In this document: piece after piece, positions 19,560 to 64,000 of the stretch | Position numbering within the stretch: the stretch's first letter is position 1 | Layout: every line of letters begins with the position of its first letter | Assembly (NCBI RefSeq): GCF_036370855.1 | Contig: NC_088099.1 | Coordinates: 146,523,017-146,587,016 of the forward strand | From: Dromaius novaehollandiae | Lineage: Eukaryota > Chordata > Aves > Casuariiformes > Dromaiidae | DNA length: 64,000 bases | Direction of reading: 5' to 3' | The notes under the pieces: model-generated | The model's input: only the letters and a program-made list of their open reading frames with translations | Told to the model about the DNA's origin: nothing | The model's database searches: none | Made by a program: the position numbers and the translations under genes

Positions 19560-19935
19560 TCCTGGTTCCTCTTTTCTCCTGTAGGGCCGAACAGTTCAGC
19601 CCCGCATCACCCGGGGCAAGCCAGGAAACGCGAGTCAGCCGGCGGGGGGACAAAGTGGTGGGATTCCTCTCACCTAGCTTCACCCATCCAAACGCTGGCG
19701 TGCAGCTGGGGCGAGTGGTCCCACCGGCAGCCGATGGAGAGGGCGAACGGCCTCTGGGGCGGCTCGGCGGGGGGAGCGGGCTGCCCACGTGAGGGGTGCG
19801 CTGAGCCCGGCGTGGGGACGAGGCGGCCCCCGGCTCCCGTGGCGGAGGCACGAGGGGCTCAACGCCGCTGGGAGGGAGCAGGCATGCAGGAGAAACGGGG
19901 GCTGAAGGGAGGCTCGAGAACGCGGGTAGTCTAGG
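19560..19935. other. GC-rich patch without a recognised gene
   Basis: A GC-rich block of about 375 bp with moderate CpG content, ending abruptly in AT-rich DNA at 19935. Overlapping open frames on both strands are what GC-rich DNA gives by chance. No known domain is visible. Confidence 0.4.
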
Positions 19936-20869
19936 GTGCTGTCAACAGAGAGGTCCACAGACCTTTTGTTAACATCTTCTTGATAGTTTATTTTATAATT
20001 ATTAGTTATATTTTATTACCATCTAGTTTTTAATATAGAACATTTTAACTTTTAATATACATTTTCTTTCCTTTAAGCTAGCATTTAAGTTTTGTTCAAA
20101 AGCCTTCTTCCATTTTTTCCAAAGAAATCTCTCCTGTCTATTTTCAATTAAAAAAGTGTTGAATCATGACTTTACCAACAAGACCCAGGAAAACTCCCAA
20201 GAAAACCAGCAGTTAAATCCATATGGCTCCCTTTGCATCTCAAAAGCCTTCAGCAACCAGAGTCCACTGCTTCCACCTCCAGCTGTAGCCCTTTGCATGC
20301 AGTATTAACTCTTGTCCTTTTCAAAACACATCACTGCACACATTTGTTGTATGTAAATACAGACTTTGCTTCTAATTTATTTCACATGTTGCAGAGTAAA
20401 AGAGCTTCTAAAGTACATGCATACTGAACATAGTTTTTAAGAAAATTACTTAGTTTATGTTTAAAAATCCAAACCAGACAGGACTTCTTATAATGTAGAT
20501 CATATATCACAACCATCCTTTGCTATTTGACCTCATAATTTATTTAGTCATATAACACAATAAAAACCACGCACAGATTAACGTTTTCAGTGGTTCTGCT
20601 GCTCGTGACATCTAAAGCTTTATATGTTTGTTTTGATTTTTTCAAACTTACATTCCAGAAGTCACGTGCCTGAAGAAGAATCCCAGCTATCTTTTTATTT
20701 TTGCTTTGTTTTGTTTTGAGTTTTAAAAAAAGCAACCCCCAAGCCTTTGTGATCAGACAGAAACTTGGAAGCTAAAGACTCAAACAACGAAGCAGATGTA
20801 TACCCAAAGCACTACTTTCTTTTAAAGAAGTCCATGACTTCCAAGTGAATGTCCCGATCTGCGAGCTGT

Positions 20870-21000
20870 TAGTGTGTGGGTGACTCCGCGCTGTGCCGTA
20901 ATTTATGAAAGCCGTACGGCCATACAAGTAGTCAAAGAATCAGGAGTCTTTGTAATTCCTGATTGCGTTGAAACTCATGATGACTTTGTACAAGTAACAA
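20870..21000. promoter_or_regulatory. candidate conserved noncoding element with inverted repeats
   Basis: Contains the palindrome GCCGTACGGC (20911-20920) and an inverted repeat with perfect 8-base arms (AATCAGGA at 20938-20945, TCCTGATT at 20957-20964). The sequence is neither simple nor repeat-like. Function is inferred from texture only. Confidence 0.3.
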
Positions 21001-21199
21001 GGATGTGGGGGGCAGGCGGTGGCCCGCTCTCTACCAGGGTCAGTCCCCATAGCCGAGGCGCCCCACGGTCTCTGCGCAGGAGGAGGATGCTGAGGGCTCG
21101 TCCGGCAAGGTGCTGCTCCGTGCAGAAGCAGTGTGGTCCCCTGTGGGTGCCGGGCTGGCTGCAAGGACAGTGCTGCTAAAGGAGAGAGCGTTACACACT

Positions 21200-21380
21200 G
21201 CGCACTGCCGGGACGTTTAAATCATCCGCTAACATCTGAAACATCAATAGCGGCTTTGTTATTGGAAAGAAAGAAAATGAGCACAATAACATTCAAGCTG
21301 TAAATTAAAAGCCCGCTGCAGATGTGGATTTCATGAGCAAAGTTATTAAGAGCATTAGGGCACACATTATAAGTAATTGA
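21200..21380. promoter_or_regulatory. candidate conserved noncoding element
   Basis: AT-rich, non-repetitive sequence with a SOX-type CTTTGTTATTGG, an E-box CAGATGTG and homeodomain-type TAAATTA/TTATTA sites within 180 bp. It has the composition of vertebrate developmental enhancers. Conservation was not tested. Confidence 0.3.
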
Positions 21381-22082
21381 AAACAAGCAAACAGGAAGAA
21401 AGCCAGGCAGGAGCACTCGGGTCGAAGGAGAATTTGCCACTCGATTACACAAGTGCAAATGAATATCCTGTAAATGGATCCACCATGATTTCCATGGGTG
21501 AAGTTACAATCATGCTGTTTATAAGTAGCCTAACCGTAAGTGTTTGGAAACCAAAACAACATCATGGCGGTTTACAATAACACAGAAATAAAAACTAAGC
21601 AGAAAACAAAACAAACGGGGCTGGCTGTTCCCAGCAGCGGCCTGGGAAGGCGGTTATCCCCTCTGATAGTGCCGATGGTCTGCCAAAGTCGCTGCAGGAC
21701 TGGGACCCGTCTGATTTTCCTGGGTAGTGTGATGATGGATCAGTTGCCTTAAGATATTTGCCTGAGAACCATTTTCTGACCTGGCTCATTGCTAACATTT
21801 TTGGACTAGTATTTACAACTACAGTCTCTCGTGCAATTTTACTGATGAAGTTCTTCCCTTTGAGTGTACATAGGGGCCTCTGTTTTCTCTCCACCAATTC
21901 TTCATTTGCGAGTGCTCAGCAGACGGCTGAGAGGATAACTTTGCATGGGACGTTTCGAATTTCTTTACTCCTTGTCACTTGCATTTCGTAGCTGATCGGT
22001 AAAGCGCGTCATTGTACTTGCTCTTGGCTGCAAAATGAAGCACTTTTAAAACCAGGTGTAAGCAACAGCAATGCTCTTTTGC

Positions 22083-22120
22083 TTAAAATAAGTAAAGGGT
22101 GATTAAAATAAGTAAAGGGT
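22083..22120. repeat. two-copy 20-bp tandem duplication
   Basis: TTAAAATAAGTAAAGGGT occurs identically at 22083-22100 and 22103-22120. Confidence 0.9.
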
Positions 22121-23929
22121 TTAGAAGGAGTTTCATTACTATCTGAAAGTGGTCTGATAAGTCAAATAAAATATGACTCATAGATCACACCGGGAAAAAG
22201 TATGATCTCTCTTATTTGCCCAAATGCCAGCCAATTGTTTAATACTATTCAGATTATTTTACTTATGTGAGATCGATAGATATTTCAAGGTGCTCCAGTA
22301 TCCGTGAGAGCAAATAAGTTAGTAACGGGGATGGGCTGTATATAGCTTTTATGTTCCTCCAGATTCCACAAGAAATTTCAAACGATCTGCACTGAATAAG
22401 GGAAATAAGGACAGGTAAAACGCCAAGCACCTTAGCTCATCTGCTGCCGAGAGCATTTCTGAGCTGTGCCTGGTCAAATCTCTGCCGATCAAGCGAATCG
22501 GTCTGACATGCCTCCCTTGCGAGGTCAGGGAGGGCCTGCAACGCCTTGGCGATACACGGCACGCCACCGCGTCAGACGTGTCACAGGAGCCCAAAGCATG
22601 GTTAGGCTGCAAAGACAAGTGCTCAAAAGTTCAGAAACGCGAGAATTAAGGCAGATTACTCAACTGTGACTTGTCTCCCGGCGCCTGATTATTTACGATA
22701 TGATCTTTGGCCGCAGGATCGCCCACCGGTGTTTTCCCCCTCCTCCTGCACGCAGCACAAGCAGTTTGTTTGCTCCGCGGCGTGTTTGCCCAGCCCTTAT
22801 TTACTGTACACGACTCCAACCCTGCTCTGAAAACAGCCCTGTTTATTCTCACGTGGGTTTCTTGAAGCTCATGCCGGTGGCGTGGACATGGGAAAGGCTC
22901 GGGGAGTCCCAGCACCCCCCCATTCAGGCAGTGCCTGCCTCCACGCGCTTGGCCTGGCCATCACAGTAACGTTCCCGGGAAACCAAAGCGACGGCAGCTC
23001 CCTCACGCCGGTTCCCAGCTAGGCCCCCTGACTCACCGGCAAAGCCAAAAACCTCTGGCACGCGCAGCCCAGCTCCGCGTCCTCACGCTCCCTCCCTCGG
23101 ATGATCCTGCCCATCTCCTGCAAATCAGGCACTGCGAAAAGCAGGTCCCTGGAAAGCAAGAACGCTGCCACGACAGACTTCTGTGTATAAAGGCATCGGA
23201 CTTGCCCAGAGAAAAAGTTTCTGGTGTCTATTTTAACAAGACGAAATGATATAGTTTCCCTTAGCCTCACAGCTGGACACAGCTGAGCTGGTCTGGCTGA
23301 CATTTTGCACAATAATTCAGCAGGAGACAGAGATTCGGAATGAAAAATTTCAGCCCAGACAGTTAACATTTGACAAGACGACAAGCAACAGAAAACAAAG
23401 CTTCTAGTAGGACATGCTGGGGACCTTAGTAACAGATGAAGTCGGCAGCTCTGCTTATAATAACCCGTGGGAACTGATGGTGTTCATTTTTCAGTCATTT
23501 TGGCATTTAAATTTTGGTGGGACTCGTTGGCCAGGCACTATGTGCAGGGCAGATAAAGCAAGTAGCGTCGCTAAGCCCCCGGTGATCCCGCAGGAGAGCT
23601 TCAGACCCGACTCCCCGCGCGCTTCACGGGAGGATGGGTTTTGTCTCTGTCCCAGCAGCAGATGCAGGGTGCCCAAGTCCATCTTCTCGTGGGACTGTCT
23701 GAGTGGCTCCCGCAGACAGGCCGGTGGTGGGGCCTGCACGGGATGGGCTTGCTCTGCGGGCTCGCACCTCCTCTGGCTGCCAGTGGCCGATGGGCTGGTG
23801 AGGAAGCCCCGGTGTCCCAGCGACAGCCACGGATTTGCACTTTCATGGTGCCGGCTAGGCACAGCCAGGCTTCTCCTCAATGGCTGGAAGAGGGTTGTAA
23901 ACCATTAGGAAGTGACCTCAGCTGACAAG

Positions 23930-24130
23930 TATATCATGTTCCTTCATTCTCCTCACTTACAGCCTTTACAACATCTCCCCATTATCGTTTAGACTTTTAC
24001 AACTCTTAATGACCCTTTTATCAGAGCAGCAATAACCAATAAATCCACTTTGGCATTTATTGCCCCATCTCTAATACATAAAAGCCCCAATTTATAACAT
24101 CTCATGAATGCTGAAGATTATTTTTCAAAC
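23930..24130. promoter_or_regulatory. candidate conserved noncoding element with HOX/CDX-type sites
   Basis: Several CCAATAAA, TTTATTGC and TTTATAAC posterior-HOX/CDX-like sites cluster in about 100 bp of AT-rich, non-repetitive DNA. The enhancer role is an inference. Confidence 0.25.
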
Positions 24131-26981
24131 TGCTAGCACTGTAAAACTTCAAATCTTGCGACAAAAATAACGAGCGTGCTCTGATAAAAGCCCCGTTGCT
24201 GTGGTTTGCTCAGCATAGGTCCCAAGTGACATTCGGCAGTGACCCACAGTGAACCCGGTGGGCTGGATGTGGTATGGCAGAGAGGAGCCAGGAGGCCAAA
24301 ATGCTGCTGCCTAAAGACCATCCTGTACCTGGGAACCTGCTATGGATCTGTGGTGGCATCACCTGGTCCTCAGTGTCCTCCTAGTGCTGCTGTTGCTCCT
24401 GCTGGGGAGGGGTGGAAGGAGCTGAAGAGATGACTGAAACGGCGAAACTCCCTTGGCAAAACCCACAGCCACAGTCGCCGTCTCCTTCAATTGAGTCTCG
24501 TCCATGGACCTCAGGATTTGCCCAGCGCTTTGCCTTTTTATTACAGCTGGCCTGGAGCAGGCAGGGCTGTGCTAGCCCCCACAGCCGCCGGAGGTCCCAC
24601 CCAGGGGCTTCAGAGCCAAATTCGGGTACATGCAATGCGATGCAGTGCTGCCTACAGCCACGCTGCACGTCACGCTGAGAAAATGAAAAAGCGGCATTGT
24701 GTCCTGGCCGGCAGCATTGAATGGCTTTGAGGAAGAAGCTTCTGCAGCACGTTAAGCACGAGGAAGGGCTGCTTGCCCGCGGGGAGGCCCCGTCCCGCGC
24801 TCAGCTCCCGCCGGGAGGTTTTGGTCCGCAGGCGGCAGGAGAGGCGGCAGCCAGGCGCACGCGGCAGGAGCTCTGCGAGTGGCAATGCGGCTTCGATACC
24901 AACAGCTTTCACAGGCAACGCGGGGGGGGGTTGGTACCCCTGGCTTCATCCCTCCAGAAGTCAGCTAACTTTAATTAGTTGTCTAGGCTTCTCTGTGAAC
25001 AGTGGAGAGAAACGGGCGCTTCCAGGAGATTTCACCCCATCCCAGAGCAGGTGCTGAGACGGATGCCCCCCGCGGCCTGTTCCTCTCAGCCACCCTTTTC
25101 CCTTTGCCACAGATGGAGCTACTCCCCTGGTTGGCAACAGTCATCTAAACAGCTAAAATTAGATGTCACGGATCTCTAGGTCTTAGTTTGCTGGGATGAA
25201 AACATAACTTTGAAGTCATTTCTCTATTATCGTAGGCAATGACCAGACTCCAGAAGTACTTTGTTTGCTCATCATTGTTATTTTTGCCCAACACACAGTA
25301 GTGCCCTGTACTCCATTTAATGAATTACTATTAAGATCACTTGAAACTGTTTTTGGGTACAAACCAGCTAGCTGTAGGATGCTGAAGGAAGCAGAAGGGG
25401 CAGAATTTGAGATCCTCCCTCGCTGAAGTTCCCCCACGTATTTCCAAACCCCGGCAATCACAACACAACAAATCAGCCTTTAAGAGTCATCTCAGACTGA
25501 ACTGTTAATGAAGGCAATACAAGGATACTATGTGTTCCTGGCAACGGCTCCGCTTTTACTAACTCTATTTCTAGATGCTAGACTTGGGCTCGATTCAAAG
25601 CCCAGCAGCGGGAAGACTTGACGTCAGTGGCTTTTGGACAGACCCATGGATATTTCTCCGTGGCAAACGCAGTGGTGTGTGCAGACACCCAGGGTAGCTC
25701 TGAGCGAGCTCCTGCCAGGGCTGGAGCTCAGCACGGCGGCATCAGCGAGACACACTATCTGGGCTCATTAGCCTTGCCAAGAAGCTCAGTCAAGGCAGCG
25801 CTGCCCCCTCAACCTGAGATAGCCCCAGCATCTCCGTGAGTTGCTCCTTGGTGCCAGGGGAAGGCAATTTCAGCTGGGTCTGTGCTGGAAGGGGCAGAGG
25901 GCCAAGTGTGTGCTGCTCCCCGTTGCCTCGGCTGCCTGTCCTCTGCTTTGCCCAGGGCTGTCGCCAGACCCTCTCCCCACCTGCTCGCTTATTTTTCTCC
26001 TGGCTGCTGCTGACCCTCTTCTCCTCTGCAGAACTATCAACCCAAGAGCTCCCTGAAGAACTTTTCATTAATATAATTTATTAGTTAAATCATGCCTCTG
26101 ACCTATTTCCCGCTCAACTAGCACGTCTCCCCGTCCACTCAGGGTAATTGGTACAGCACCTGAACTCCGCTGCCTGTGTTTAAATGGCCTGACATATATC
26201 ATTGAGTCACAGGATATTAAGAGAAAGGTGAGAGGATTATTGGCACGCTGCCACCGGGATCGGATTGGATTTCTTGTCCAACTGCTGAAACACGCAGTTG
26301 TGTAAAGCGGGTTCATGCCGGCTGGGTTTAGTCCTCGCTCAGAGCTCCCTTGGCAGCTTGCTTGAAAGCAATGGGGCTCTTCCCTAGGGACCACGGGCTG
26401 CGTCCCGCGAAGCCTCGGCCGCGTGAGGGAGCCCGCCTTGCTCACCTTGTCCCGTTTGCTAGGGACCCCTTTGCGTGAGGCTTTGCAGGATGAGGCCCGA
26501 GCTGTCGAGCTGCCCGGGAGGGCTGGACCTACCCCCTCCGTTTGGGAGGCCCGTTAACCCTCTTTCGCTGTCTGGCTGTGCCGGCCCATCGTAAGAGCCC
26601 ATGTGGTCAGCCTGGTCTCGCTTGCCAGCCTGCGCGTGGCTTGGGTCTCCCCACCAGCTGTAATGTCTTGTTTTGTATCGTAGTTCTCTCCCCATCAATT
26701 CTCCTGCTGCTGAATTTAAGGAAAGATGAAATTCGGGGTTACAGGTTTTCACCTGCAAATTTTGTTGCACAGCATTTCCACTCTTAAATTATAAAACATC
26801 GAAGAGCACAAAACACAGCCACTGTCTTTGCCAAGAGACATCCCTTCTACCTTTTTCCTGTTTTACCCAGGGAAAAAAGCCTGCGACGTCAGCAGCGTTC
26901 CCCATGACTGTTGCAATTGGCTCCCACCTTTTTTGGACTCCTCCTTCTCTCCTCTCATGCTCCTGTGCCTCCCCTCATAGT

Positions 26982-26997
26982 GGGGGGGGGGGGGGGG
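26982..26997. repeat. 16-G homopolymer run
   Basis: Sixteen consecutive G. It directly abuts the first X-box-like motif. The run is prone to sequencing-length error and to G-quadruplex formation. Confidence 0.95.
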
Positions 26998-27026
26998 TAA
27001 CCATGGGAACCAGAAACCATGGCAAC
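26997..27026. promoter_or_regulatory. tandem RFX X-box-like motifs
   Basis: GTAACCATGGGAAC (26997-27010) and GAAACCATGGCAAC (27013-27026) are spaced 16 bases apart. Each fits the X-box pattern GTNRCC-N2-RGYAAC with one mismatch, in opposite half-sites. RFX factors bind such sites in promoters of ciliary and other genes. About 100 bp to the right lies a CpG-rich block. No gene start could be recognised on either side. Confidence 0.5.
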
Positions 27027-27119
27027 CAAAAGTAGTCGAATTTGTCTGAGGAAAGAAACCTAAGCATGCAAAATCCCTTTAATGTTTATACCAGGCTAGT
27101 TGGTCCAAATCTTCTTTTC

Positions 27120-27560
27120 CCTCTTCTGCGGAGAAAGGATGTTACGAGCCCAGCTCCTTTCCCAAGGGCAGCGCTGGGGCTGTGGGTGCCGCTCGTGGCC
27201 ACCCAGCCAAAGCCCTGGGCCCGCGGCCGCCCTACACGGGACGCCCGGGAAGACACCTCCCCGCACTCCCGGAGAGCGGCGGGGGCCTGTTTCCGTCCGC
27301 GGGGCGATCCCTTCCCTGCTCCCCGGGAGCAAGTGGAGCAAGCCGGTGGGCTGGGATGGCTCCGCCGGGAAGCACTTTGGGAAAAGTTCTCCGCATTTAC
27401 TAACCGGAGGGCTCAGACGCACGCGCCTGCCGCACGAGACAACCTGGAGCGGAGCTGTGCCCTTACGGCGGCACCCCGGGCGCCCGGCCTCGACGGCCCT
27501 CCTTCAGTCTGCTACGGCCCTGCAGCAGCGTGCGCAGGCTTGAGCTCGTACGGACTGGGA
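27120..27560. promoter_or_regulatory. orphan CpG island
   Basis: CpG-rich DNA with CCCGCGGCCGCC, CCCGGAGAGCGGCGG and similar blocks, next to the tandem X-box-like motifs. Open frames (for example 27042-27653 plus) show no known domain and are probably composition effects. It could be a promoter of an unrecognised transcript or lncRNA. Confidence 0.45.
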
Positions 27561-27599
27561 TGCCCCATCACAGGATTGAGGACTAATAAGACCAGGAGA

Positions 27600-30500
27600 C
27601 AGCATACAAATTGTCGTTGCTGTTTACTAGAAACTACTGAACATGTTGACTAAACCAGAACTCCTGCCGGCCCCTCGGGTGCCCTCTCTGAAGATGCTGG
27701 GCCAGATTTAACAGTGGTGTTGCTGGTTTTTGCTGGCAGCAAGCCTCGGGGCTCGTGTTTCTCGTCCCCAGGACCCACCGCCATCTGAAGAGCTGTGTTG
27801 CTCCATGGTGCGTCCAGAGGCTGTCGCGGTGCATCGGGACCCATCTTCTGCCCTGTCTCGCGTAGCTGGGGCAGGAGGGGACGCGATGGCTTCCACGTCT
27901 CTGCCCAGCCTTGACGCTCTCCTCTTCCCCTGGACAGTGAGCGAGGGGAAGGCGCCTCTTGATCCCCTCCAGCGGGATCTCGGGGTGATGACGGGGCTGT
28001 GCCAGGGCTGCGCTGCCCCTGCCCTGCGGCTGGCCCAGCCAGACCAGGGTGCTCGTACGGCCCCGGCCCCCACCCACAGCCCTCGAAACCCTGCTGGTGG
28101 TGGCCTTATCCCAAGGGTTTGGTGGGGTTACAGGGCTTTTTTGTAACCGCTGCAAAAGCTTCAGACAGCATTGCCCAGTGCTGCTCGAAGGCCAGCTCAG
28201 CGAAGAAACAGCTGGTGGGTTTTTGCTGCTCTAAAGGAGGGTGAAAGATGAACTGTTTGACTTCTAGCCTGTTTCCAAAATAGAACGATAACTATAAGTT
28301 GCCTTCTTTAGGCGAAGAATGATGATAGTGGTAATAAATTGTACACATTTATTTTTGAGTTTGCAGATGGATGAATGTCAAGTGATGGTTGGGAAAAAAA
28401 ACAAACAAACCCTGGCAAGCAGCTATTTTTATAGGATAGTTTTGTGTTGAAATTTCTATAAGTTGGCAATGGAGTCGTCATGAGACCTTTTATCCAGATA
28501 AGACCATGCCAAAATCTTCAGGAAACATCTTGTGCATTTAATTTTTTATTTACAAAAATAGGGAGAGGGAGAGAGAATGAAGGCTCAGGGGAATATTTGC
28601 AGACTTACAGCGTCTGCTCTGCAAGATACCAAATACTTTTTACTCTGCAGATGTAAATGGGACTTTTTCCAAACCTGCCACTTGCTAAGTTCAAATCTGG
28701 TGTGGCTCCAAGTTAGACCTTCCACCGGATTTGTCTGTGGGCTGGTGGGGAGATGTCACCAGGCAGAGTAAGCAAAGTTCATGAACCTTAAGTGCAAGTC
28801 TGGGATATCGCACCTTTAAGGTCAATGAGCCTGTTGAGAGCAGACTGGCTCTCCAGTCTCTGCAAGCACAGTCATTTTGAAGAGAAGAAGTCAAAACTTG
28901 ACCAGACATGTTGCTCCTGCCTCTGGCCTCTCTCTCTGCTCCCAGACAAGGTCTATTCATGAGAAGCGCTGAGCCAAGCAGATGTCTTCAGCCTCCACGA
29001 CTGCAGTTCCTCGCTCAGTCCTCTGGGAAGTGACTTCTTTATCAATGTTTGCTGTTTGTGTTTAACAGATGGGAAATGTCTGGACTTTCTTAGATTTCAT
29101 GCTACATCATGAAAGTGTTGCTGTGTGCAGGTATGCATGCGTCCATCCCTAATTTCAGCCTGCAGAGGCGCTATGAAGAAAACTTTTTAGGTTTAAATAG
29201 CCCTCAATGGTGGCTCATAAAGACAAAAGTATTCTATGTTTAAAAAAGCTCTAGAACACTTGAAACTGTCCCAGATAATTTCTGGCTGATAAGAAATGTC
29301 AAAATTCTGCTTATTGTAGGTGTTCTGCTGACAGTCTGCCTGCAGGGGAGGAAAGGGTTAACCACTCTGCGAGAGCGGAAATCTAAGAAGGGAGCTTTAT
29401 AACTGGCTCTGTGATTGGAACATTAGATAGTAATATCTCAAAATTAAACTATTTAAGCAGCTCCAGTTTCGAGGTTAAATTGTCTTTAGTATGTTTCTTC
29501 AGTTGAGGTTTGTAACCAAAGCGACAGCTGCTTCCCAAAGATCCTTTCTTAAAGTTTGTAAGGATTTTTGTGTTACTGGAATTTAACAAATTGAATCATT
29601 TAATTCTGATCCAATACTGAGACCATCTTGGTGCATTTGTCTGATTTTGATTTGATTGTTGTGTTGTTTTCTTTGTAATGTTAATAATTTAGCCTCAGCA
29701 GTATCTTTTCCTTGATTTTACTCTCCTTGTTTAAACTGAGTTTCTTTTAGCAAATAGGTGCCAGAAGGGGATCAGAAGTGGATGAGAGCTGGCCATCTGA
29801 AAGTTTGACCAGCTCTTCCAAAATTGTCCTCAATTTTTTCTCTAAAGATTCATAGCAAATTCCACAATTTTTACACACATGTGCAGTTGCAAGTAGCTCG
29901 CTGGTGTTCCTGGTGGAATGTGTTGCATGTTTGAGCACTGAGGAAATTTTCAACGCAGTCTGCTAGCAGTGCCCAAGTCTTCTCAGTACATTGGAGGTTG
30001 TTTGCAGAGGTCACATCTGGGCCTGAGCAACGGGCTAGTCTCCATTCAAGAGTTTTCAAAGGACCCCACATGCTCACTCAAGAGCATGTGCCTTATTTAC
30101 ATTCAAGGCATGGCTGCACCACCAGGTTCAAATGAAAACCCTGAGGCATCAGCCACTAATTATCCCCTGTGCTCATTGCATACCCAAGGAGCCTGCTCTA
30201 GGCAGATGAAAGACATGCGCCAAGCACTTTGGAGAATGTGCGAGAGGGAGAAAGCACAACAGAGAGAACAAAAGTTTAGGCAGGGCAGGAAGAGGGAAAA
30301 TCATTATAGCCAGGCCCAGGATGGGGAGGGGTGAGGAGCCCTGAAGGAGGGCCAAACTGTCTGAAATGGTCAGCAGTGGCTGTCTGAAATGGTCAGCAAC
30401 CATTAACCATCACCAAAACCCTTTCCAGAGTGAAGGGACATAGAGATGGGTGAAGACGAAGGAGGAGGAGGAGGCAAAGAGCACTAGGAGATGCTCATGT

Positions 30501-35375: not shown

Positions 35376-38300
35376 GTGCAGTTTTACTCTAAACAGTGAT
35401 TGTGGGTAAATGGATCTCTTGTAGGCAATAGACTTGTTCTCAAGCACATCTGGGGAATTCACTCTCTAAAATAAGTTTTTGACACATTTTATTCCTGCTA
35501 ACGCTGCAGAACTTCCTCACCCAAGACAGCACATTTCTATTCCAGCTCCTTCCTCATCAACAGCCGCAAGCCACAGCCCTCACTGCTGAGGGAGGAAGAC
35601 CCAGAAAAAGCCTCTCTGGCTTTCACAGCTGATCTTACACTCCACTGGCAAACCTGGAAATACACATTTTCGCTTGTCAGCTAGGCGAAACTGTGAGTTG
35701 ACTAGAAAGACAAATTTCTGCAGTGCCTGGCAAGGCAACTTCTCTGAATGCAACTGACTTTTTAATGTCAGCACAGAGCGGACAGGACCTTTGAAAGTCT
35801 TGCCCAAAAGCCCTTCGCAGAGCAGGCGGTGTCCTGCCTGTTTGGGCTACACAAATACTTCACAGTGCTGGAAATGGGGTTGCACGGCGTAGTTTCTTAC
35901 AGCGGGGTAATTAGTGAAGTGCATGGTGTTCTTGCAGACGCGTATTTACTTAGGGGCAAAGGGGGAGTCAATATCTGACATAGCGTATTGCATCCCAGTG
36001 GGGCCGCTAGATATCCCCGCGAGATCCGCTGCCCTGCTGCCCACGGGCCCGTGGCTCCCTGCGGGCCTCCGGCACCTTTCCACACGGTGCTGCAGCTGGC
36101 CTGCGGCAGCCGGATCGCCGCGCGGGAGCTTTCCCCCGCGCCGCTCTCCACCCTCCCCAGCGATCCCGCTGCGTCTGTGACACATCTGCACCAAGCAGGG
36201 CCAGCACACGGGTGCAAGCTCGGTCGTACCATTCAGACAGGTACCCAGCTGATGGGTGCCACTATCTGCCAGCGCCTTGCAGCAAAGAGGGACGAGGGAG
36301 CAAGACGCTGTCCAGGAGGCTGCTGCCTTCCAAGGAGCCATCCAAGCTGTGACGCAGCTCCGTGGGAGCTCAGTTTGGTGTAGTTTGGGGCTGCAGCCAT
36401 CCTACCTGTCTCCCACCCCTGGCACCAGTGCAAGCACACAGTGACTGGTTAAGGGAGCTGGTTTGTCTGAACACTCATCTTTTTTATTCCCCCATGGTGT
36501 TAGCTTTCAGCTAGCTCAGCTCCCTGCGCTGGCTCCCTGCCAGCCCTGCGGGTTGCAGGGCCAGAAGAGGCTGGAGAGGAGGGTGAACCCATGGCAGCCC
36601 CGTTTCAGGCTGGTTTATGCTGCTGTGCAACAGCCCCCACGTTACCATCTCCTTTTGCAAACGCGGGAATACAACAGGCAGCCTTCCCTGCTTTGAGCCA
36701 GCTCCCCTGCCCCTTTCCTGCCTCCCGCTCCCACTGCCTTGTCACCGCGCTCCATCCTAATTTCCTGGCTTGTGCGCCAGTCAGCCCACCTTGGCCGGTG
36801 TGGTGCCAGCCCCCCGGGCTGAGCTCACACGCCACCACGTGAGACCTGAGAGCGGTTGTGTCCACCCAGCGCAGAGCTGCGAGCTCCAGGAGCTCAGCTC
36901 TGCACCAGCCTGACAGAGGGAGCAACAAAGTCAGTTAATCGGTACAAGTTTGTCACCTCTCTAATCATACAAAGTCCAGGCTGGCTTCTTTGGCCATATA
37001 AAGCTCAGATGAGCATTTCCTGTCAATAAAAATCTTAAAGTAGCATTTCTCTATCAGTACAAATGTATAAAGTCCTAGCAGGACATACACTGCAGATGCT
37101 GTTAATAAGACTTTGATATGGTTAGTTTTCCCACTCTTGAAATTCATTGCAAAGCAGCACTAAAGGCCCAGTGGACTTTGAGCAGGGTTGCAAGGGAGAC
37201 GGATGAAATTTCAGATGCTGGAAGTGCTGGAGTTTTGGGCTGCCTTCTCACGGGATCCCAAACCCATGGCTCTCTTCTTCCAGCCAAACAGAACATCTGG
37301 CAGTGCCATTCTCATGGCCTGATGGAAACACAGATCTCACTGGGTTTCCCCAAACCTTTGTAGAAATGTGCTTGCTTTGTCCTTTAGTCATACGCAATGG
37401 GAGGAGACCGTCCCAGGCTGGGCCCACCTGCAGAAGGGCCCATGCAATCTCTAGCCAGGTTTCGCCAGGCTCCCTGCCCTCGTCCTTCTTCCAGTGTCCG
37501 CAGATCACTGCTCACCAGTGCTGCAGCCCCAGCCTCCCTGCCCCGTGCTGGCCCTGTAGCTTGAAATGCTGAGCAGCAGGACTGCGATCAGCCAGTCCTG
37601 TACAGCAAACATGGGGGGCCATCCCCCCCAAAGGCTGTGCATCCCCGAAAAACCCGGGCAGAGGAGGAGAGGTGGGAAGGAGTCACTATTTCCCAAGTCT
37701 CCCAAGAGTGGGACAAGGCTCCAAGGATGGCATCTCAGAGTGGGGCCATGACTCTTTCCTTTAACTTGGCTTCCCAGGGAAGTGGATAATGCCTGCATGT
37801 TACTTCTCTGGCTTTACAGGATCCATGCCTGAAGCATCCTGAAGGGACCTGAAAGTGAAGAAGGGAAAAAACAAAGAAGGAAATGTTTGGTGACCTCATT
37901 TGAGCTCTGAGAAATGCAGAAACACTCAGGAATGGAGAGTGTTTCTTTGGGAGGAGCAAAGGCCAGGGAATGCAGGAGAACCCTTGTCCTGATCAAAGAA
38001 CTGGTGAAAAAACATTCCGGGAGGTGGAGTCACCTTTGATGTTGTGAGCAGATTATAAAGCCATGCCACACCAGTTCCTGAGATTCCTAGACAGGGAAAG
38101 CTGGTCACACACACTGGGAGATTTTCCACTATGAGCCAAAAACTCCCAGTCTTGTATACTGAAATCTCTCCTGTCCTTTAATTTAAACCCCTTGCATTTG
38201 CTCTGTTTGCATGACATCAAAGCATTGCATTTTCTAGAAAAATTTTGTTTTGTAGTAATATTTATCTTCACTTTAAAGCTGGATTTTATTTTTTTCTTGT

Positions 38301-43360: not shown

Positions 43361-46184
43361 CTTACTTTAAAAAAAGGAAAAAGAAAACTGAGATTCACAT
43401 ATGAATGTGTGACGCCAGCAGCTGGCCCCTAACAAAATCACCTGATATCGTGAAACTTGAGAGAACGTCGTAAGAGTTGTCGGTGTAGTCAGACAGATCC
43501 TCCCCGGCGTGACAGGCCAACATAGCTCAGCACAACCGGATACAAACAGCAGTAAAACAACGTCATACAGAGCGCGTACACCGGTGCCTGTGTGTGGGAA
43601 TAGCAGCCCTTACCTCCAGCTGGTCGCTGTGGTGAGCTCCCTCCGCGCAAGGAGGGGCAAAGTGCTCCTTTTTGAGGAGGCAGTGACAGGAGCCAACGGC
43701 TGGCCTGGCGGGAGCTGGGCAGAGCCCAGAGCATGGGATATGGACACTTTTGGGGTGGCAAGGATGGGTTCAGCAGCGCACACTCTCCCGAGCCCCTTGC
43801 TCATTGCTGCTGCCTGCTCCTCTGCGAGGTCCCAGCGTGAAGCAGATAAGGGAATCGATCCAGGTTAAAAATAGCCGTGCGTCTCCCTCCCTGCCCCTCT
43901 CCTCCCAGCGCTAAAGCATTACTGGAAAGCTGCAGTTTCCTCACCCCGTTCCCAGGGCGGCCCTGCAGCGGCAGCCACGGCACGGCTGGAGGGGCAGCGC
44001 GGCGGCAGTGCCGGGGGTGGGCGGCACGCGGCCGGGCCTCGGAGAGCTGTCGCAGGGCTGATTGCAGACCTAGGGAGGGCTGGTCACCACCAGCTCCTTC
44101 CTGATGGCCCTGGAGCGCCTGAGCCCAGCCTCTACAGATGTTTAAAACTTCGGCTACCTTTCGCTCTTCTGAGCTGCCGTTGGCTGCTGTCTCTGCCTCA
44201 GGCTGCTCCTCTCTGAACTCCGCACCCTGCCTGCTCCCCGCGCTCACGTTCTCCATCTACAGGATTTTCCATTCCTGTTGCCCTCCCCGTCTTTCTTTCC
44301 TTTCCTTCTTTATCCCCATCTCCCCTTGCTTTCTTATCTCCGCACTGATCAGCTCTTAATCCCCTCCATCGTTCCTTCTCTGGCGAGCCTTTCCTGACAC
44401 TCGCACTGTATTTCCAAACAAACAGAGCATAATGAGCCGAAAAGCCGAGAGGAGCAATGCTGCAGGAGCGTGTTCTCCTTTGTGCGGTCTGCGAGCGCGT
44501 GCAGGAGCGCTCGTCATTACTTCAGCGCACGCTGGCGAGACGCGGCGCTCCTTTTCCCCAGCCTTGATCTTCTTCATCTTTTAAAAGCATTCCCCGGTGA
44601 CAGAGACTGTATTTCCCTGTTAGTATGCGCAATTTCTAGCACGTCTGATCACTCCTGCAATATAAATGCTGAGTAATAGTAAAAACAATACACAAAGCAC
44701 TCACCACCTGCGAGCCTAGGCTGCCTGGAATTGCGCGCTTTAGCAGCAGCTCTGAGAGTCACCCGCTTATATAACACTAAGGGCCTGGGAGCATCCTCCA
44801 GAGGTGACTAGGTGTCCTTATCCTCATGCCACACGCGAGCAACGGTGACTCACCGTGAGACATGTAACGTGTCTCTAGCAGCGGGAAGGGGGAAGCGAAG
44901 TTTGCTAAACGCTTATGCCGTGCTTTCAGTGTTTCGCCTCCTCTTCAGCCGTGGTGGTGGGAACCAGGACGTGATTTCAGAGGGGAGAGGAACCAAAGCT
45001 TGCATGGGCTGAGCGATTTTATGAGTCCCCTGACTGCAGCCACAGCGGAGTCAGTGGATTGCGAAGCGGTAAATGAGAAGGAAATATAAGGTCCACCTCT
45101 GTTTGCTAACATCCTTTATTCCTTTTGTAAGTAATGCTCTCAGCCAGCGTTTCCCAAAGGGGAATCTGGAGGGAATCACACGGCCTCCACATGGACTTAT
45201 GTAAGAGAGGAAGCAGCTGGTCCCTGACATTTATTGCTGTACTTCAGCTGGCAAACTTTGCTTGAAACACTGCACACAAATGCATTTCTCCGCGTTATTT
45301 GCATCCTCCCTCATTTGGTTCAATTAATTAACCCTTCAAGCGAAAAAAGTTCCCCTGCGAGCTTGTCTCCTCCAGGCCCGGGAGGGCCGGCGCAGAGGCC
45401 GGGTAAGGCTCAGGTGCTGCTGGACGCAGGTTTGTTCCTGTTCTTATTTTAGCTGAGCCAGTTCCCCCTCCCTGGCAAATATGCGATAATGCAGTTTGTT
45501 TGTAGCAAGTATCATGCACGGCACAGCTGTACCATGGATTACGTAACGCCAGTGACTCAGAGCAGAGTTGTGGGGCCACCAAGTCCATTCCTTTGCCAGG
45601 ACAACAGCGTTCGCCGTGTACCAACCTATGGGCTTTACCCACGCTAACCAAGCTTCACAGCTTTTCTCTGAGGTGCGTAAGACTGTTGACATTTTTCAGA
45701 TGTAGGAACTGAGAAACGAGTGTTGCTGCCAGTAACATCGAGCACCGGCGGCTGTGCAGCAGCTGCACCTCTGCTAGTGCCGCGGCAGGAGGAAGACCCC
45801 GGCCGCGTGCGGTGGGCAGGAGGGCTGGGGCTCGCTTTCAGCTGGCGCTGGCCACAAAAATGTCCCGGCACTCCGTCCTTTTTCCCAGCCGCCGGTCTCA
45901 GCTGAGCTGGGGCACAGGAGCCTCTCTCAGCCATAGCCTTTTTCCCTGTGGCTCAGATCAGAGGGAATGTTACTCACTTTCACACCATTTTACATCATCC
46001 TCTGTCACAGCAGGGACCACTAGCTGCTCTTGTAGAATACCGCTATTGCAAAACAGCGGGCAAATAATGTAGGAAATGGGAAAAAACCTACAGGTACCCT
46101 CCCAGTACCAACTTAGTACCAGAAATACTCTCAGGTGGGAGATTTATAATCAAAGTCAAAATGCAGGTGAGTTTTTGACTCTAG

Positions 46185-49479: not shown

Positions 49480-49890
49480 GCTTTAATAACTCTGCAGCCT
49501 CCCCAAGGAGGTAATTTGTGCAGCAGTTAAATAAAGCAAACACTGTTGGAATTTAACAAATAACACAGATTAATAACAGAGGGAAACATTCTCCATTATC
49601 TGGGTGGGACATGCATTGTTTCATTGATATTACTGCAGTGCCGGGAGATTGAAATAAATCGTGTTTTAATTAAAATAAAATGTAAAAAATGGAAGACAAA
49701 GGGACCACTAATGTTCTGCCAGTCTGCTCCAGAAAGTGCTGCTCTTGGTAATGATGGGCAGAACTCATCTGGGGAGCAGGACGGTGGACGAGCAGGCCAT
49801 AAAGATAAAAATTGAATGGAAAATGCTTCGAGCCAGGCTGACAGCTTGGTTAATAGAGTTCTGTGCTAACGAATATTAGCATTTACGCAG
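49480..49890. promoter_or_regulatory. candidate conserved noncoding element
   Basis: Two AT-rich sub-blocks with dense homeodomain-type sites (GTTTTAATTAAAATAAAATG; GCTAACGAATATTAGCATTT, which contains an imperfect palindrome). There is no repeat signature and no coding frame of note. Confidence 0.3.
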
Positions 49891-50539
49891 GCTCCCCTAG
49901 CCTTCGAAGTGACTAGGAGGGGGAGGGATGGTTCACGACGCCACGGTGATTGCAACGTAGCTGGCTCCCCGTGAGCCTGGCTCCTCGTCCCCCACGTGTG
50001 CCCTTGCCCTGTCAGACCACCCGCACGGCCGGAGCAGAACGGGGCTTCAGAGGAATTGTTCTAAAAATCAAACTTTAAATTGGGAGGAACATCAGCAAGG
50101 TGCTCAGTGTACCGATTTCAGTGGCAGAACAGCTCCCCATGCTCCGAAACTCGGACCCGGGTGCACGAACACCAGCGGCAGCAGCTGAGGCACCCGAGAT
50201 GAGCGGTCCGTGTCCTGCGCCAGTCTGGTTGAATTCAGTGACTCTGTCAGGACCGCGCTGGTGTCCTCAGCAGACTGCGCCGCGAGGAGGAACGTAGCAG
50301 CAACCGCAGCGTGTGTTGGGCTCAGTTTGCAGCGCTTTCCACACTAGATCCCCGCCGTTTAGCGCCGTGGAGAGGGCAGTGCTGGGGTCTCAAACCTGCG
50401 TGACCGCAAAAATGAAATGATGACTTTGTCAAAAAATGGGGAAAGTGTTTGGAAGGAGTCCAGCTCTTGCAGTCCTCTTTTTCTTTTATTGCATTTGTTT
50501 GGCTTATTCTGTCCACAGCTGCCCGTGCGCTGGTGCCCT

Positions 50540-51060
50540 GGGTGCACGCGCGGCTCACGGCGGGCGCAGGCAGGCGAGGCGGTGAGCCTGGCGCCCGTCC
50601 AGCCGGCCTCTGCCCCAGTGCAGCTCCCTCGCAGGGCTATCCCGGGCCTTGAAATCCTTCAAGGAAATGAACTCGAAGCTACATTAAAATGCATAAACGA
50701 GCCCAGCGTACAAGGGCATTAAGATCGTGGGGCAAGGAGGCTCAAGGGTTCGGGAGGGCGGCGGGCGCCCGCGAGCAGCAGCAGACCGGCAGCGGGAGGA
50801 GGGCAGCAGCGAGGAGCGAGGTCCCCGGCACCCGGCTTTCAAGGCAATTCGCAAAGCTGCTGTCTCGACAGCCGGGATTCACACACAGCTTCCCAGAAAG
50901 GATCACTTCTCTGCAGGAAAGCAAGCGTCCCCTGCACCGCGGCGCTGGCGACACGTGAACTCGCTCAGCGGAGCCCGAGCGCCCCGGCGGCACGAGGCAG
51001 CCGCACGGGGCAGAGGGTTTCCAAACAAACCGTCGGCGACCAGAAAACAGCTCGGAGCAG
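50540..51060. promoter_or_regulatory. orphan CpG-rich block
   Basis: GC- and CpG-rich over about 520 bp in otherwise mixed DNA, with a good plus-strand splice-donor-like GCGGTGAGC at about 50579. No coding exon or known domain can be assigned. It could be a promoter of an unannotated transcript. Confidence 0.35.
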
Positions 51061-54000
51061 ATCGCTCGCAGTAAATCTCCACATGACGCCGAGGCTGGGT
51101 TCGTCTTACACAGAGCTAAGAGTAGACAGAGAAATGCCGAGGACAGATGGCAGCGCCGTTCCCAGGGATATGGCCATAGATGAGCGTGTGCCGTTGCTGA
51201 CTACTGTATATGTCCTTGCCTCGCTCAGCAGCGTACGTAACTGGTAAGGACAGTAATACGTTTCTAGGGAGTGAGTCTTAAATGTCCTGGGGGTTGGAAC
51301 CAAAGATGGTAGCTCTTTCTATTTGACACAGCTACAGCATCAAATATCCCACGTTACGGAAAATCAGAAGCCAAACTGGAACCTGTTTATCTGCCAAGAT
51401 CTGAATTTCGAGTGTAGCGTTATTGTGCCGCAGCCGGTGGCAGAGCTCACCTAAGGCAGCATCGCGGGAGGTCACATCCTTCACGCGGTTACACTTGTCT
51501 CTTCTGGTGCTTATCCGGATGGCGGCTGAGTACGGGGAAACACAGATCTGTGCAAGCCTGAATAGCAATAGCAACAGCAGTGATAGTAATGCATAATCAT
51601 TGCATCTCCCTGCCCAAGGAATTCAGGAATTTTCCTGTTTTACAGGTGCATATATCCTATTCTCCACAACAGCTTCTGAGTGGACAATCCATACAAACCA
51701 GGAAACCTGACTCAATATTAGGCATCTGTGAAGCTGATCATAGAGAACATATCATCACGCACATAAAATGAACAACACAAAATCTAGAGTATATATTCTT
51801 TCTCTGATATCATTCGGTTACAATTCTTTTTGGGGTATCTGCAGCAACAGGATCAAAAAAAATTTCAGAGAGTAGAGTGACTTACCAAAAATATATCTCC
51901 ATACAGATTACATGTGAATAAAACTTGCATTTTTCTATACTATTTATGGACACATTTGTTTGTAAACCTATTTAAAACATTTTTTCAAACTCTTAGAGGT
52001 TACTTGCACCACTTCATAGTTTTACTGTAGAACAAAGCTGACATCTCCAGATGGCAAATATAAACATCAAAAGATGAACTGTCACTCAAAGACACGTGGG
52101 AAACGTCTGCAAAAGCTGAGTACGGTGTTAGAAGCATTTCAGTAGTAGAGTAAAAGTTCTGAATATGCCGTTAATAGTGGCGCAATACATCTAACTGACA
52201 TGCTGGAGGTGGCAAGCTGCACTCAAATGCTTTGCTACCCGCAAAATGGCACTTATTTCTGGAGTGCAGTATAGCCAGGAAATTATACAGTAAATCAAAG
52301 GTACAAATTACACAAAGTGTGCTATAAAATGTAGAATGTCTTAAGTGACATACAAGCAACATGCACATGTGCATGGCTAGGAAAGCATGTACGGGTCTCA
52401 GCCACTCTGGTGAATCAGTATTTGAGAGTGTTACAGTTTTCAGTATCTCCTTTTGTATAATCAGATAACTGCAACTACAAATTTTACTTGAGGACTGACA
52501 GTTTTACATTACAATGGCTTCTTTGTTGCTCCAAGCAGCAATATATATACAACAAATCAGTCCAGAAAGAAAATGCTTTCCGTCATACTAGTGTTTGCCT
52601 TATTATTAGAATGAGGAACTATGTGCATGAAGAAGTTCTTCTTTATAATTTTTTACCAGCACTATTAGTCTCTTCTAGATATTGGCAGGGGTGGGAGGAG
52701 ATCTGCCAAAATACATTACACATTTTGTCTCAGCTGTAGTGACAGAAGGCATTCAGTGTGAGCTGTGCAATTCAGAGCGTTTGCGGATGGGAGAAAGAGT
52801 TCATTCAAAATAGTGAATAGTTAGTTTGAACTTTGCCACATCCCCCAAACAGAAATGGTTTTATAAATAAAATATTTGATGAAATTTCTGCAGCAGGAAA
52901 GGCTCAAAAACTTGCTCTTCCCTTACACCAGCCTCAGCAGAGAGAGCTGTAGGTGGTGCCTGGCCCGTGCCTCAGACACCAGTTCTGCAAGTCACGGTTG
53001 CACCAGGATCCCATCTCTTTTACGGACTTGTCTGACTACAAACTCCCAGCAAAATAGTGAGGCTGCCTGTCAAGACCACACATTCAAGCATTTTGGCCCA
53101 ACTCTACATATAGGCATTTTTGTGGGATTTTTTTTCCCCAACATAACTATACCATGGTTTACTGTCAGCATTGGAGTTTTGTTTATTCCTAAATTGTAAT
53201 TAAAGCATTGGTTTCTGAAGGGCTGAATGAGCTAATGAGTCGCGATCGAGCAGATCCACGTGGTTCCGCTCTGCAAAGGAGATCTGTGGCAGTAGCGAGC
53301 CCGAATAACTGCATTGCAATCGTATTAGGGTCGCTTCTGCAGCGTCTGTCTCCACAGCAAGACTGAATGATGTACAACCATGGTGTCATGTACAAGCCCA
53401 AAATAGCTCTAACGCTGCTAGCAATTAGCCATGCCTTGATAGCTGTGTGCTAATTTGTTCCCCTAGCAGAATATTTTCTGTGGTGAAAACTGAATCTACT
53501 ACTGTAGCTGCCACACAGTAGATTTTTAGACGTTAATAAGCACGGAGGAATTTCAGGCACGGACGAGCTCAGGATGTGCCCCACCGGGGTCCCTCCAGCT
53601 GCGGCTCTGCGAGAGGCTGGCTCCACAGCCGCGCTGGTGCAGGGGGTCCTGCCCTCTGCTCTCCTGCTGCTCTTACACCCCAGCTCAGCACCTCGCTGCT
53701 GTGCCAGGAGATCCCTACGTTGGGCCATGAGCCATGGCCAGGCTGGCCCTACAGACCACTGCCCGGGCACAGCGGAGGAGGCTGTGAACTTCAGCTGGAG
53801 GCCAGGAGCCATCAGCTAGGGGTGGAGGGGATCCAGGGTGGAGAGCTAAACCCATATGCAACTCCTTGCTTTTTTGTAGGCTCACTTCACCGCTGGTTTA
53901 GCCCTCCGTGGCTCCGGCGTGCACCAGCGCCGGCACGAGGCACGGGTTAGAGACGGGCACCGGTGGGAAGGGCTCGCCACGGGGCAGCCTCGGCTGTGTT

Positions 54001-60087: not shown

Positions 60088-62807
60088 AGCACAGCAAAGT
60101 CTGCTGTCGAACTATCTGTCAGGAAAATGCTGCAAACACTTTTACAACTCTTCTCATCCTTACCTTCACTTTTAGAAGACCGTGACCCTACCCTGTATCT
60201 TTGGGAGATGAGGGGGGTTGCTTAAAATGCTTGTGGTGTGCTGCTAAAGTAAAAGCCATGCTCCAGAGCTCATCGCCAGCAGCAGAAGACAATGTATGAA
60301 AATTAACCCCTGCTTTTTTAAAGTGAAGTGAGAGGACTGTGCTCCAGGTACCCTCCCAAACCTTGCCATGGTAAACTTGGGACACAGCCAGATGACTTCA
60401 TGGCCACAGTTTAGGAAGTCACAGCCTCTACCAGGCAGTTAACCCTTGCTTATGGTTACAAAATCCGCACCATTGCTCATACGTGTGCAACAGCCACTTT
60501 ATTGCAAAATCTGCTGTTCAAGCTGTTCCAGTTTCTACTGGCTGAGAGGCACCAGCAAACAGCTAATAGCTAATAAACCACTGTAGTCATTCCTGCCGGG
60601 AAGGTCTGGCCATGGCTGCAGACAATTTAGGCCGCCTCCCAGAACTGGTCTGGGTCGCCTCCCGACAGGGGCCTGGGTGCCGTGGTGCTGAGGTCCACTC
60701 GCTGTGATGCTGAGCTCCACTCTGCAGAGCGAGCCCAACGCAAGTTCCTGCTGAGCCCCGCTTCGAGCCCGCTTCCAAGCAGTTTTCCCCTGTGGGCAAA
60801 TCTTTGAAGGGCAACTTCAGATCTGACATGGGATACATCACCTTCTCAAGCATTTAAGCTTCATCTTTTCTTTCACTATTATCATTGTGAAGAGAGCTGT
60901 TAGAATACCAAAATAATGGCTGAGAATCATAAATTTCACTAGGAGCACATAAACTGAAACGCCCTTCTACGAACAACTCCTAACAATACTCAAGTTTACC
61001 ACATTCATTTTGTTGAGGTGGTAAAACTATTAACCTTGATTAGCAGCATTCAATGCAAGTACTTTCAGTGGGCATAGTCGTGAAATCCTCAGCAGATGCT
61101 TAGTCACTCGTCAATCAGTCGTCACTGAAATTTTGCATTAGAAAAGATCTAAGGACATCGGGATTGTGTTAATGACCACTCGCATCTGCTTATCCGTGGC
61201 AAGGATCTGTCCTACACTGCAAACTCCTCCCAGCACTGCTGGTGGCTAGGGATGCAATGAAGTGTGACTTGCGGCTATCATTGCTGGGCTCGTGAAAGGC
61301 CCAAGCATAGCTGTAGTCACCAGCAACACTGAGCTTTTGATGGTATAACTTATTTTGCTTTATGGGAGGGGGAGGAAAGGCTGGAATAAGCTGTACTGGC
61401 CTATTGCAGTTCTGCTGGTACAGAATACCAGATCACCTATTCAAAAGTGCTCTGAATGTAGATCTGACTTGGAACTGGAGCAGATCCACCCACCACATGT
61501 ATTTAGGCCTTTCATTGTTTCACGTGAAAAGATGCTGCATCGGCGAGTGAGTAACAGCAGAAGAGTTTTTTAAAAGATATTTTTGACCTGGGGAAACAAG
61601 ATCACATCCTTTCATTATCTGTAGAACAATGAGATCCACGTTTCGATTGCCCGTTACCAAGAAGGTAGTGCCTTAAAATATATGACTAAATAATACGCAG
61701 TTGGTGTACTTCACGCCAAGTTCACATAAATGCAGCCTGGATGCGCAGTAACGGCTTTGGACGTGTAGGTTGGAGGCCACTAAAATTTTCACGACAGCGA
61801 TCATTCACAAATGTGCACACACACAAGTCTCTTTCAGTTTGTAAAGCAAGTGAAAGTAGCTTGGGAAAACGGTGACAAACAGATCAAAGGACATTCCTTC
61901 CCCTTTGCCAAATGTTTACTTATTAACCCAGGACATGGTGCTGATAACAGTTATGTGTGTGAGCAACTTCCACCATACAGGTAATTCCACCAACTGCAAG
62001 GCGATTACCGCCACACAGAGTTGTGTGGATGAGCGTACGCGGGACTAAGGCCCTAACAACGTTTTGAAATCCAGAAAACGTTACCTAAGGCTCATCAGAG
62101 ACGCTCTAGCGTTTGCTCGAACGATACAGTGCCAGGTTCAAGGTAAGACTGGGACCAGAACAGGAAGGGGATGACGTAAGACAGAGTCACTCTTGGCCTG
62201 GTTTAGTGAGCAGAACCCAGACAGAAAACCGGAGAAGATGACCGTACAGGCTCGTTGCACGTCTGCTAATTCTAATAATGGAAAATAAGATCCCAAAGGC
62301 ATTTCCCCGCCATGGAAGTAAAAAACAAATCAAAACACCGCTGGCGGTAAGGACGCCGCGCGCATACAAAATGGGCCGAACCCCACTGCCGAACGCAAAC
62401 GGCTGGGCCGAACGGGGAACAGCGCGGTGCTGTGCCGGGACGGCCGCGAAGCGAATCGCACGACCCGGACCTGCTCCTGCAGGCGGGCGCACCGCCTCGG
62501 GCTCGCGCAGGGACGTCCGACCACCGCGCCCGCCCCATGAAACGCGGCGCTAAAACGCCGCGCGGACCGACGGTGCGGACGGGCGCGCGGCAGCGGCGGC
62601 AGCGCCGCGCACCTGCCGCGGAGCCGGCCCGCGGCGGCCGCCGGGGCAGTGCCTGAGCCCCGCGCAGGGCCCGCGGGGCCGGGCCGGGGCGGGGAGGCCG
62701 CGGGCGGGCGGCAGCCATTGCCCCGCTCCCGCGGCGGCTCCCCGCCGGGCCGGGGCCGGGCTGGCCTCGCGCGCCCCCCGCGTCCCCGCCCACTCGCTCC
62801 CCTCCTG

Positions 62808-62830
62808 CCAATCAGCGCGGCCCCGCCCCC
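62808..62830 (+). promoter_or_regulatory. CCAAT box plus GC box, probable core promoter
   Basis: CCAAT (62808-62812) and CCCCGCCCCC (62821-62830) lie about 410-430 bp upstream of the FRAT-family ATG. They fit an NF-Y/Sp1 type, TATA-less promoter. The transcription start is not determinable from sequence alone. Confidence 0.45.
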
Positions 62831-63236
62831 GAGACCCGAGGTGCGGGGTTTGAAAGCGGGCGGGACCACTCGGCGCGCGGACCCGGGGGGGGGGGAAGGG
62901 AGCGGGCGGCGGGGAAGCGCGGCGGCGCCCGCCCGGGGCGGTGGTCTCCCGGCGCGGGAGCGGCCGCCGAGCGCAGCGGCACGACGCCCCGCTTCGCCGC
63001 GCGCGGCCCCCGCGGCGGGCGGGGCAGCGGGGCGGTTCGGCGCGGCGGGCTCCCCCCCCCGCCCGGCGCAGTGGGAGGCGCCTGGCGGCCCGCGTCACCC
63101 ATTGTTTACAAACCAACCCCAGCGGGCCGAGCTCCAGCTCAACCGCAGCCGCCGGGGCCGCGTGTGCTCGCGCGCGTGTGGCGGCGGCGGCGGCGGCGGC
63201 GCCCTCGGCGTGTGCGGCACGGCGGCGCCGGCCGAG

Positions 63237-63839
63237 ATGCCGTGCCGGCCGGGCGAGCGCTTCCTGCTGCTGGAGCGCTCGGTCGCCGTGGGGCCGGCCG
63301 GCTCCAAGGAGGTGGACGCGCTCGTGGCCAGGCTGGGCGAGGTGCTGCAGCTGAGCGCCCAGCGGGCGCCGCCGCCCCGCGCCCCGAAGCACCTGGGCCC
63401 CGGCAGCGCCCGGGACCGCGCCGCCCCCTACTCGCCGCGCTGCAGCGGCGGCGGCGGGCTCGTGGCGCCGCGGGGGCCGGCCCCGCCGCCGGCGCACCAC
63501 CACCAGCACCACCGCGCCGAGTCCCCGCGCCCGGAGCGCGGCGGCCACCAGCGGGTCACCAAGCAGCTGTGCGGCCGCGGCTGGCTGCGGAGCGCCGCCC
63601 GCCGGAGGAAGCAGCCGCCGCCGGGGCCCGGCGAGGGGCCGGAGGAGGAGGAGGACCCGCACCGGCTCCTGCAGCAGCTCATCCTCTCCGGGAACCTCAT
63701 CAAAGAAGCCGTCCGGCGGCTCCAGCTCGCCGCGGCCGCGGCGGCGGCGGCCGCGGCCTCCACGGCGTCCAGCGGCAGCGCCTCGGCGGGGAGCAGCGGC
63801 GCGGACGGCGAGGCGGCGGCTCGGCCGCCCCTGCAGTAG
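63237..63839 (+). CDS. FRAT/GBP-family GSK3-binding protein, intronless, 200 aa
   Basis: FRAT (GBP) proteins bind GSK3, keep it from axin and so favour beta-catenin signalling. Start chosen at 63237 because MPCR is the conserved FRAT N-terminus. The frame is open further upstream to 62649, but that part is low-complexity CpG-island sequence. Residues 9-41 (FLLLERSVAVG, then EVDALVARLGEVLQL) match the family's N-terminal conserved block. Residues 140-163, beginning DPHRLLQQLILSGN and continuing LIKEAVRRLQ, match the GSK3-binding helix region, preceded by an EEEE acidic stretch. A His-rich segment lies at about 87-93. After residue 164 come ten alanines and a Ser/Gly/Ala tail ending at TAG 63837. 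The mammalian C-terminal conserved segment is missing; human FRAT1 and FRAT2 are longer (about 279 and 233 aa). A single exon is normal for this family. Family assignment is firm; which paralogue it is cannot be told. Confidence 0.9.
   Translation: MPCRPGERFLLLERSVAVGPAGSKEVDALVARLGEVLQLSAQRAPPPRAPKHLGPGSARDRAAPYSPRCSGGGGLVAPRGPAPPPAHHHQHHRAESPRPERGGHQRVTKQLCGRGWLRSAARRRKQPPPGPGEGPEEEEDPHRLLQQLILSGNLIKEAVRRLQLAAAAAAAAAASTASSGSASAGSSGADGEAAARPPLQ
63727..63759 (+). repeat. alanine-coding GCN repeat inside the FRAT-family gene
   Basis: A run of GCC/GCG codons encodes ten alanines directly after the GSK3-binding helix. Mixed codons suggest that it is not a recent pure-triplet expansion. It replaces the Arg/His-rich sequence that follows the helix in mammalian FRAT1/2. 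Confidence 0.8.
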
Positions 63840-64000
63840 CCGCCGGCGGGGCCCCGCGGCGCAGGACTGGCGGCGGCGCCCGGACGTGGCGCTGGCGGCG
63901 GCGCCGTGAGTCGCCCCGCGCGGCGGCCGCGGGGGGAAGCGCGGGAGGCGGCGCCCCCCCCCCCCCCCCAAGGTCACCCGCCGCCGGGAGCCCCGTGGCT

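Follow-up and report, generated by a model that had tools for sequence, protein, structure and literature searches.

Human FRAT1 and FRAT2 lie in a band that we take to be 10q24, and human DPY19L4 lies in what is presumably 8q22. FRAT is conserved among vertebrates, and FRAT1 and AXIN1 are described as competitors for one GSK3B site, with FRAT raising CTNNB1/TCF signalling (PMC6974163). Zebrafish gbp is given as the single ancestral FRAT gene and is assigned to chromosome 16 in Table 2 of PMC5110251; zebrafish gdf6a is placed on LG16 (PMC4852494) and human GDF6 at 8q22.1 in a reference title of PMC8470939. One mouse locus has Dpy19l4 and Esrp1 among its candidates (PMC5627198), and mouse Frat3/Peg12, which has one coding exon, is named as retrotransposed (PMC8037846). 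Of the human map positions put forward by the sequence-only reading, those checked agreed with these sources, FRAT1 being listed on chromosome 10 in human, with chromosome 19 given for mouse (PMC5110251), and human ESRP1 at 8q22.1 (PMC12503292). Among the literature matches listed, zebrafish gbp was not found to adjoin dpy19l4 or esrp1, and the zebrafish link is one of chromosome level only. Segments that correspond to several human chromosomes occur on zebrafish chromosome 16. Among the titles and abstract openings of the literature matches listed, which take in few subscription journals and no annotation database, none described a bird or reptile FRAT gene beside DPY19L4, and public annotation may well show the linkage already.

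The window analysed here, a whole stretch of 64,000 nucleotides from Dromaius novaehollandiae, carries such a FRAT/GBP gene at its right-hand end, with the following features.

63237 to 63839, plus strand: FRAT/GBP coding sequence, an intact single frame matched by Pfam PF05350 and by PDB FRAT1 5oy4
63237 to 63353, plus strand: N-terminal block, residues 1-39, with MPCR, FLLLERSV and EVDALVARLGEVLQL, from alignment with human FRAT1/FRAT2
63570 to 63590, plus strand: CGRGWLR block, residues 112-118, from the alignments
63654 to 63722, plus strand: GSK3-binding core (FRATtide-like), residues 140-162, 22/23 against the human FRAT1 core and matched by chains 1gng, 3zrk and 4afj
62001 to 64000, no strand: CpG island spanning the coding sequence of FRAT and the DNA upstream of it, reaching the window end, with 500-base windows of up to 87% GC and CpG observed/expected of up to 1.25

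The frame runs without an intron from the ATG at 63237 to a TAG ending at 63839 and holds 200 codons (200 aa) with zero internal stops. The last 2 kb of the window is 76% GC and several frames are open there; because long open frames come cheaply in such sequence, the case for FRAT rests on homology. Pfam GSK-3_bind (PF05350) matched the frame with E = 5.7e-25 and a score of 88.5 bits (cut-off 25), which places it in the family, and the PDB matches included human FRAT1 (5oy4, 1.3e-12) and FRATtide (1gng, 1.5e-8). The GSK3-binding core was identical to that of human FRAT1 at 22 of 23 residues, where the best among 2000 shuffles of the residues of the frame reached 11 and the runner-up site across all six frames of the window scored 8. 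The N-terminal MPCR block of the family is also present, without the run of acidic residues found after MPCR in human FRAT1/2. The family identity first proposed from the MPCR start, the N-terminal block and the GSK3-binding helix is thus borne out by the Pfam score, the 5oy4 match and the core, and judged by its sequence the gene is a genuine member of the FRAT family and in other respects an ordinary one. GC makes up 98.5% of the third codon positions, and the CpG island begins more than 1 kb upstream of the gene. A poly(A) signal was absent from the 161 bases between the stop codon and the window end, and the 3' end would lie beyond the window. An AT-rich stretch, TTGTTTACAAACCAA, stands at 63102-63116, 121-135 bases upstream of the ATG amid very GC-rich DNA, and resembles a forkhead-type site. 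A peptide pattern used to look for relatives matched 109 stretches in viral and 590 in prokaryote contig collections; none of them encoded a relative, which is unsurprising for a vertebrate gene.

Most of the protein is low-complexity sequence, in which three conserved blocks stand out; Ala (34), Pro (25), Gly (23) and Arg (23) account for 105 of its 200 residues, and it is shorter than the 279 aa of the human FRAT1 chain 5oy4. Against the human sequences used for comparison, 92 of 198 aligned residues were identical to FRAT1 and 83 of 174 to FRAT2, where FRAT1 and FRAT2 share 187 of 232 residues with each other. A single-sequence structure model was poor overall (mean pLDDT 59.1, pTM 0.26), with a helix at 141-177 over the core, where residues 141-170, averaged ten at a time, had mean pLDDT of 80-87, and a second, weaker helix at 24-43. 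As the solved FRATtide is a helix-turn-helix, the single long helix of the model is not to be taken literally. For the function of the protein our best inference is that it would be expressed, bind GSK3 and act on it as its described relatives do. The C-terminal helical block would occupy the Axin-binding site of GSK3 and so keep the kinase out of the beta-catenin destruction complex, with a rise in Wnt/beta-catenin output.

At the opposite end of the window, on the minus strand, lie the exons of the neighbouring gene and the CpG island next to them.

5484 to 5601, minus strand: coding part of the probable DPY19L4 start-codon exon, ATG at 5601, with position 5484 followed by a GT donor; LRQRKK is common with the human N-terminus
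4402 to 4526, minus strand: DPY19L4 coding exon, tblastn 85% identity over 4524-4402, Pfam Dpy19 E=9.3e-4, AG acceptor and GT donor
3641 to 3736, minus strand: DPY19L4 coding exon (tblastn limits), 87.5% identity, Pfam Dpy19 E=9.3e-12
1769 to 1888, minus strand: DPY19L4 coding exon (tblastn limits), 92.5% identity, Pfam Dpy19 E=1.4e-11
748 to 897, minus strand: DPY19L4 coding exon (tblastn limits), 92% identity, Pfam Dpy19 E=9.4e-20
8301 to 10000, no strand: CpG island that probably holds the promoter and 5' UTR exon of DPY19L4, judging from its place 5' of the coding exons

The four stretches found by tblastn gave collinear Pfam Dpy19 matches, three of them over the gathering cut-off and the first (4524-4402) under it, at 17.9 bits against 27.2. 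Of their 163 compared residues, 146 agreed with human DPY19L4 and 77 with human DPY19L3, a comparison confined to these two members with DPY19L1 and DPY19L2 outside it, and on these residue identities the minus-strand neighbour is DPY19L4, nearer to it than to DPY19L3. Near the CpG island, a translated fragment at 7792-7899 (plus strand) resembles the C terminus of the reverse transcriptase of a CR1 LINE, and together with the compact introns this would fit a bird or another sauropsid.

From the FRAT ATG to the probable DPY19L4 ATG (5601) is 57,636 bases (57.6 kb), and to the middle of the island at 8301-10000 it is about 54 kb; the distance of 54 kb given earlier fits the latter, and the DPY19L4 exons stand on the same gapless sequence. 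The two genes diverge, FRAT on the plus and DPY19L4 on the minus strand, and are transcribed in opposite outward directions. The position of FRAT relative to DPY19L4 is real within the window sequence, which contains zero N runs, and on that basis it is unlikely to include a misjoin. When human ESRP1 was compared with the window no credible match was obtained (two rows, best E = 0.34), and human PGAM1 returned no row. The window stops 161 bases past the FRAT stop codon, and ESRP1, if adjacent, would fall outside it; FRAT is probably placed between DPY19L4 and ESRP1.

Between the two genes, the interval 49801-51300 is CpG-rich (up to 66% GC, CpG observed/expected up to 0.93) and could be an unannotated promoter; two open frames within it had no Pfam match. 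Weaker CpG-rich stretches in which no gene was recognised occur at 19201-28000, 35701-36400 and 43801-46000, and Pfam likewise matched none of eight open frames, which lie at 19-28, 39 and 44 kb. In all, none of ten selected open frames (151 to 235 aa, 19-52 kb, many more frames existing) matched Pfam at E 0.01, and a further gene within 10-62 kb, outside the ten scanned frames, is possible. No tRNA, no Rfam family at gathering score and no repeat of at least 60 bases (14-base seed) was found in the window.

We consider it fairly probable that the window holds a functional FRAT/GBP gene of one exon at the probable ancestral vertebrate locus, and that the mammalian FRAT1 and FRAT2 moved to 10q24. 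The ancestral FRAT locus would have stood near DPY19L4, probably between DPY19L4 and ESRP1, and in the mammalian lineage the gene would have moved and left FRAT1 and FRAT2 as its descendants at 10q24, the direction of the move being the one we infer. Since the linkage in the window and the zebrafish gbp chromosome both point to an 8q22-type site, a site ancestral here and a mammalian move make the most economical account. That FRAT genes do relocate is known from the retrotransposed mouse Frat3/Peg12 (PMC8037846). For the fuller history, in which the FRAT/GBP gene of jawed vertebrates first lay in the DPY19L4-ESRP1 interval, the gene was lost there in mammals and FRAT1/FRAT2 arose from a copy moved to 10q24, followed later by mouse Frat3, we put the chances at about even. 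The sequence-only reading had offered a third paralogue or a translocation: relocation is favoured, though probably in the mammalian and not the sauropsid line given the zebrafish gbp chromosome, and the third paralogue has become the less likely of the two.

Since 8q22 and 10q24 have flanks from different whole-genome-duplication groups, one would not expect a simple ohnologue pair, which tells against a true third FRAT paralogue, that is, a species that also kept a 10q24-type FRAT and a window copy that mammals lost. The missing acidic run and the identities with human FRAT1 (92/198) and FRAT2 (83/174), low beside the 187/232 between those two, would suit such a paralogue, but low identity fits equally well with fast drift of low-complexity linkers, and zebrafish is listed with a single gene, on chromosome 16 (PMC5110251). 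A third paralogue is therefore possible but unlikely, and less likely than the ancestral locus.

A relocation or retrocopy specific to birds or sauropsids, derived from an ancestral 10q24-type region in the manner of mouse Frat3/Peg12, would agree with the intronless frame in the window and with the one coding exon of Frat3, named as retrotransposed (PMC8037846). It was set lower because of the location of zebrafish gbp, which shares its chromosome with another 8q22.1 gene, gdf6a, in the sources cited above, and the CpG island starting more than 1 kb upstream would be more typical of an established gene; we regard this explanation as improbable. Very GC-rich sequence is prone to assembly trouble. 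An assembly misjoin that joined a FRAT contig to DPY19L4 could draw on the position of FRAT at the window edge and on its GC content (76% over the last 2 kb), but with zero N runs across the window and a linkage that is unsurprising given the zebrafish gbp location tabulated in PMC5110251, it is highly improbable.

If the locus is ancestral, as we favour, it is the FRAT1/FRAT2 pair of mammals that has relocated, and the FRAT1/FRAT2 oncogenes would be without their ancestral regulatory surroundings. Frog GBP is needed for axis formation, whereas Wnt signalling in the mouse can do without Frat. The changed genomic context might bear on this difference and provides a testable candidate reason for it. 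Caution is also due in nomenclature, as sauropsid FRAT genes should not be named FRAT1 or FRAT2 by assumed position. The suggestion that the gene adds a Wnt regulator to the bird or sauropsid gene set need not hold: FRAT being conserved among vertebrates (PMC6974163), the window gene need not be new and may simply be the sauropsid FRAT.

Compared with human FRAT1/FRAT2, the window gene is alike in its MPCR start, its FLLL...EVD-LVA--GE-LQL block, its GWLR block and its GSK3-binding core, and in a coding sequence without intron, but it is unlike them in having no acidic run, shorter linkers and other chromosomal neighbours. With zebrafish gbp and Xenopus GBP it shares the standing of a non-mammalian FRAT homologue, a likeness drawn from description and not from alignment. 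Mouse Frat3/Peg12 is similarly a FRAT gene that has one coding exon and stands apart from the Frat1 locus, but differs in its 283 aa, in lying on mouse chromosome 7C within the imprinted PWS region and in being named as retrotransposed.
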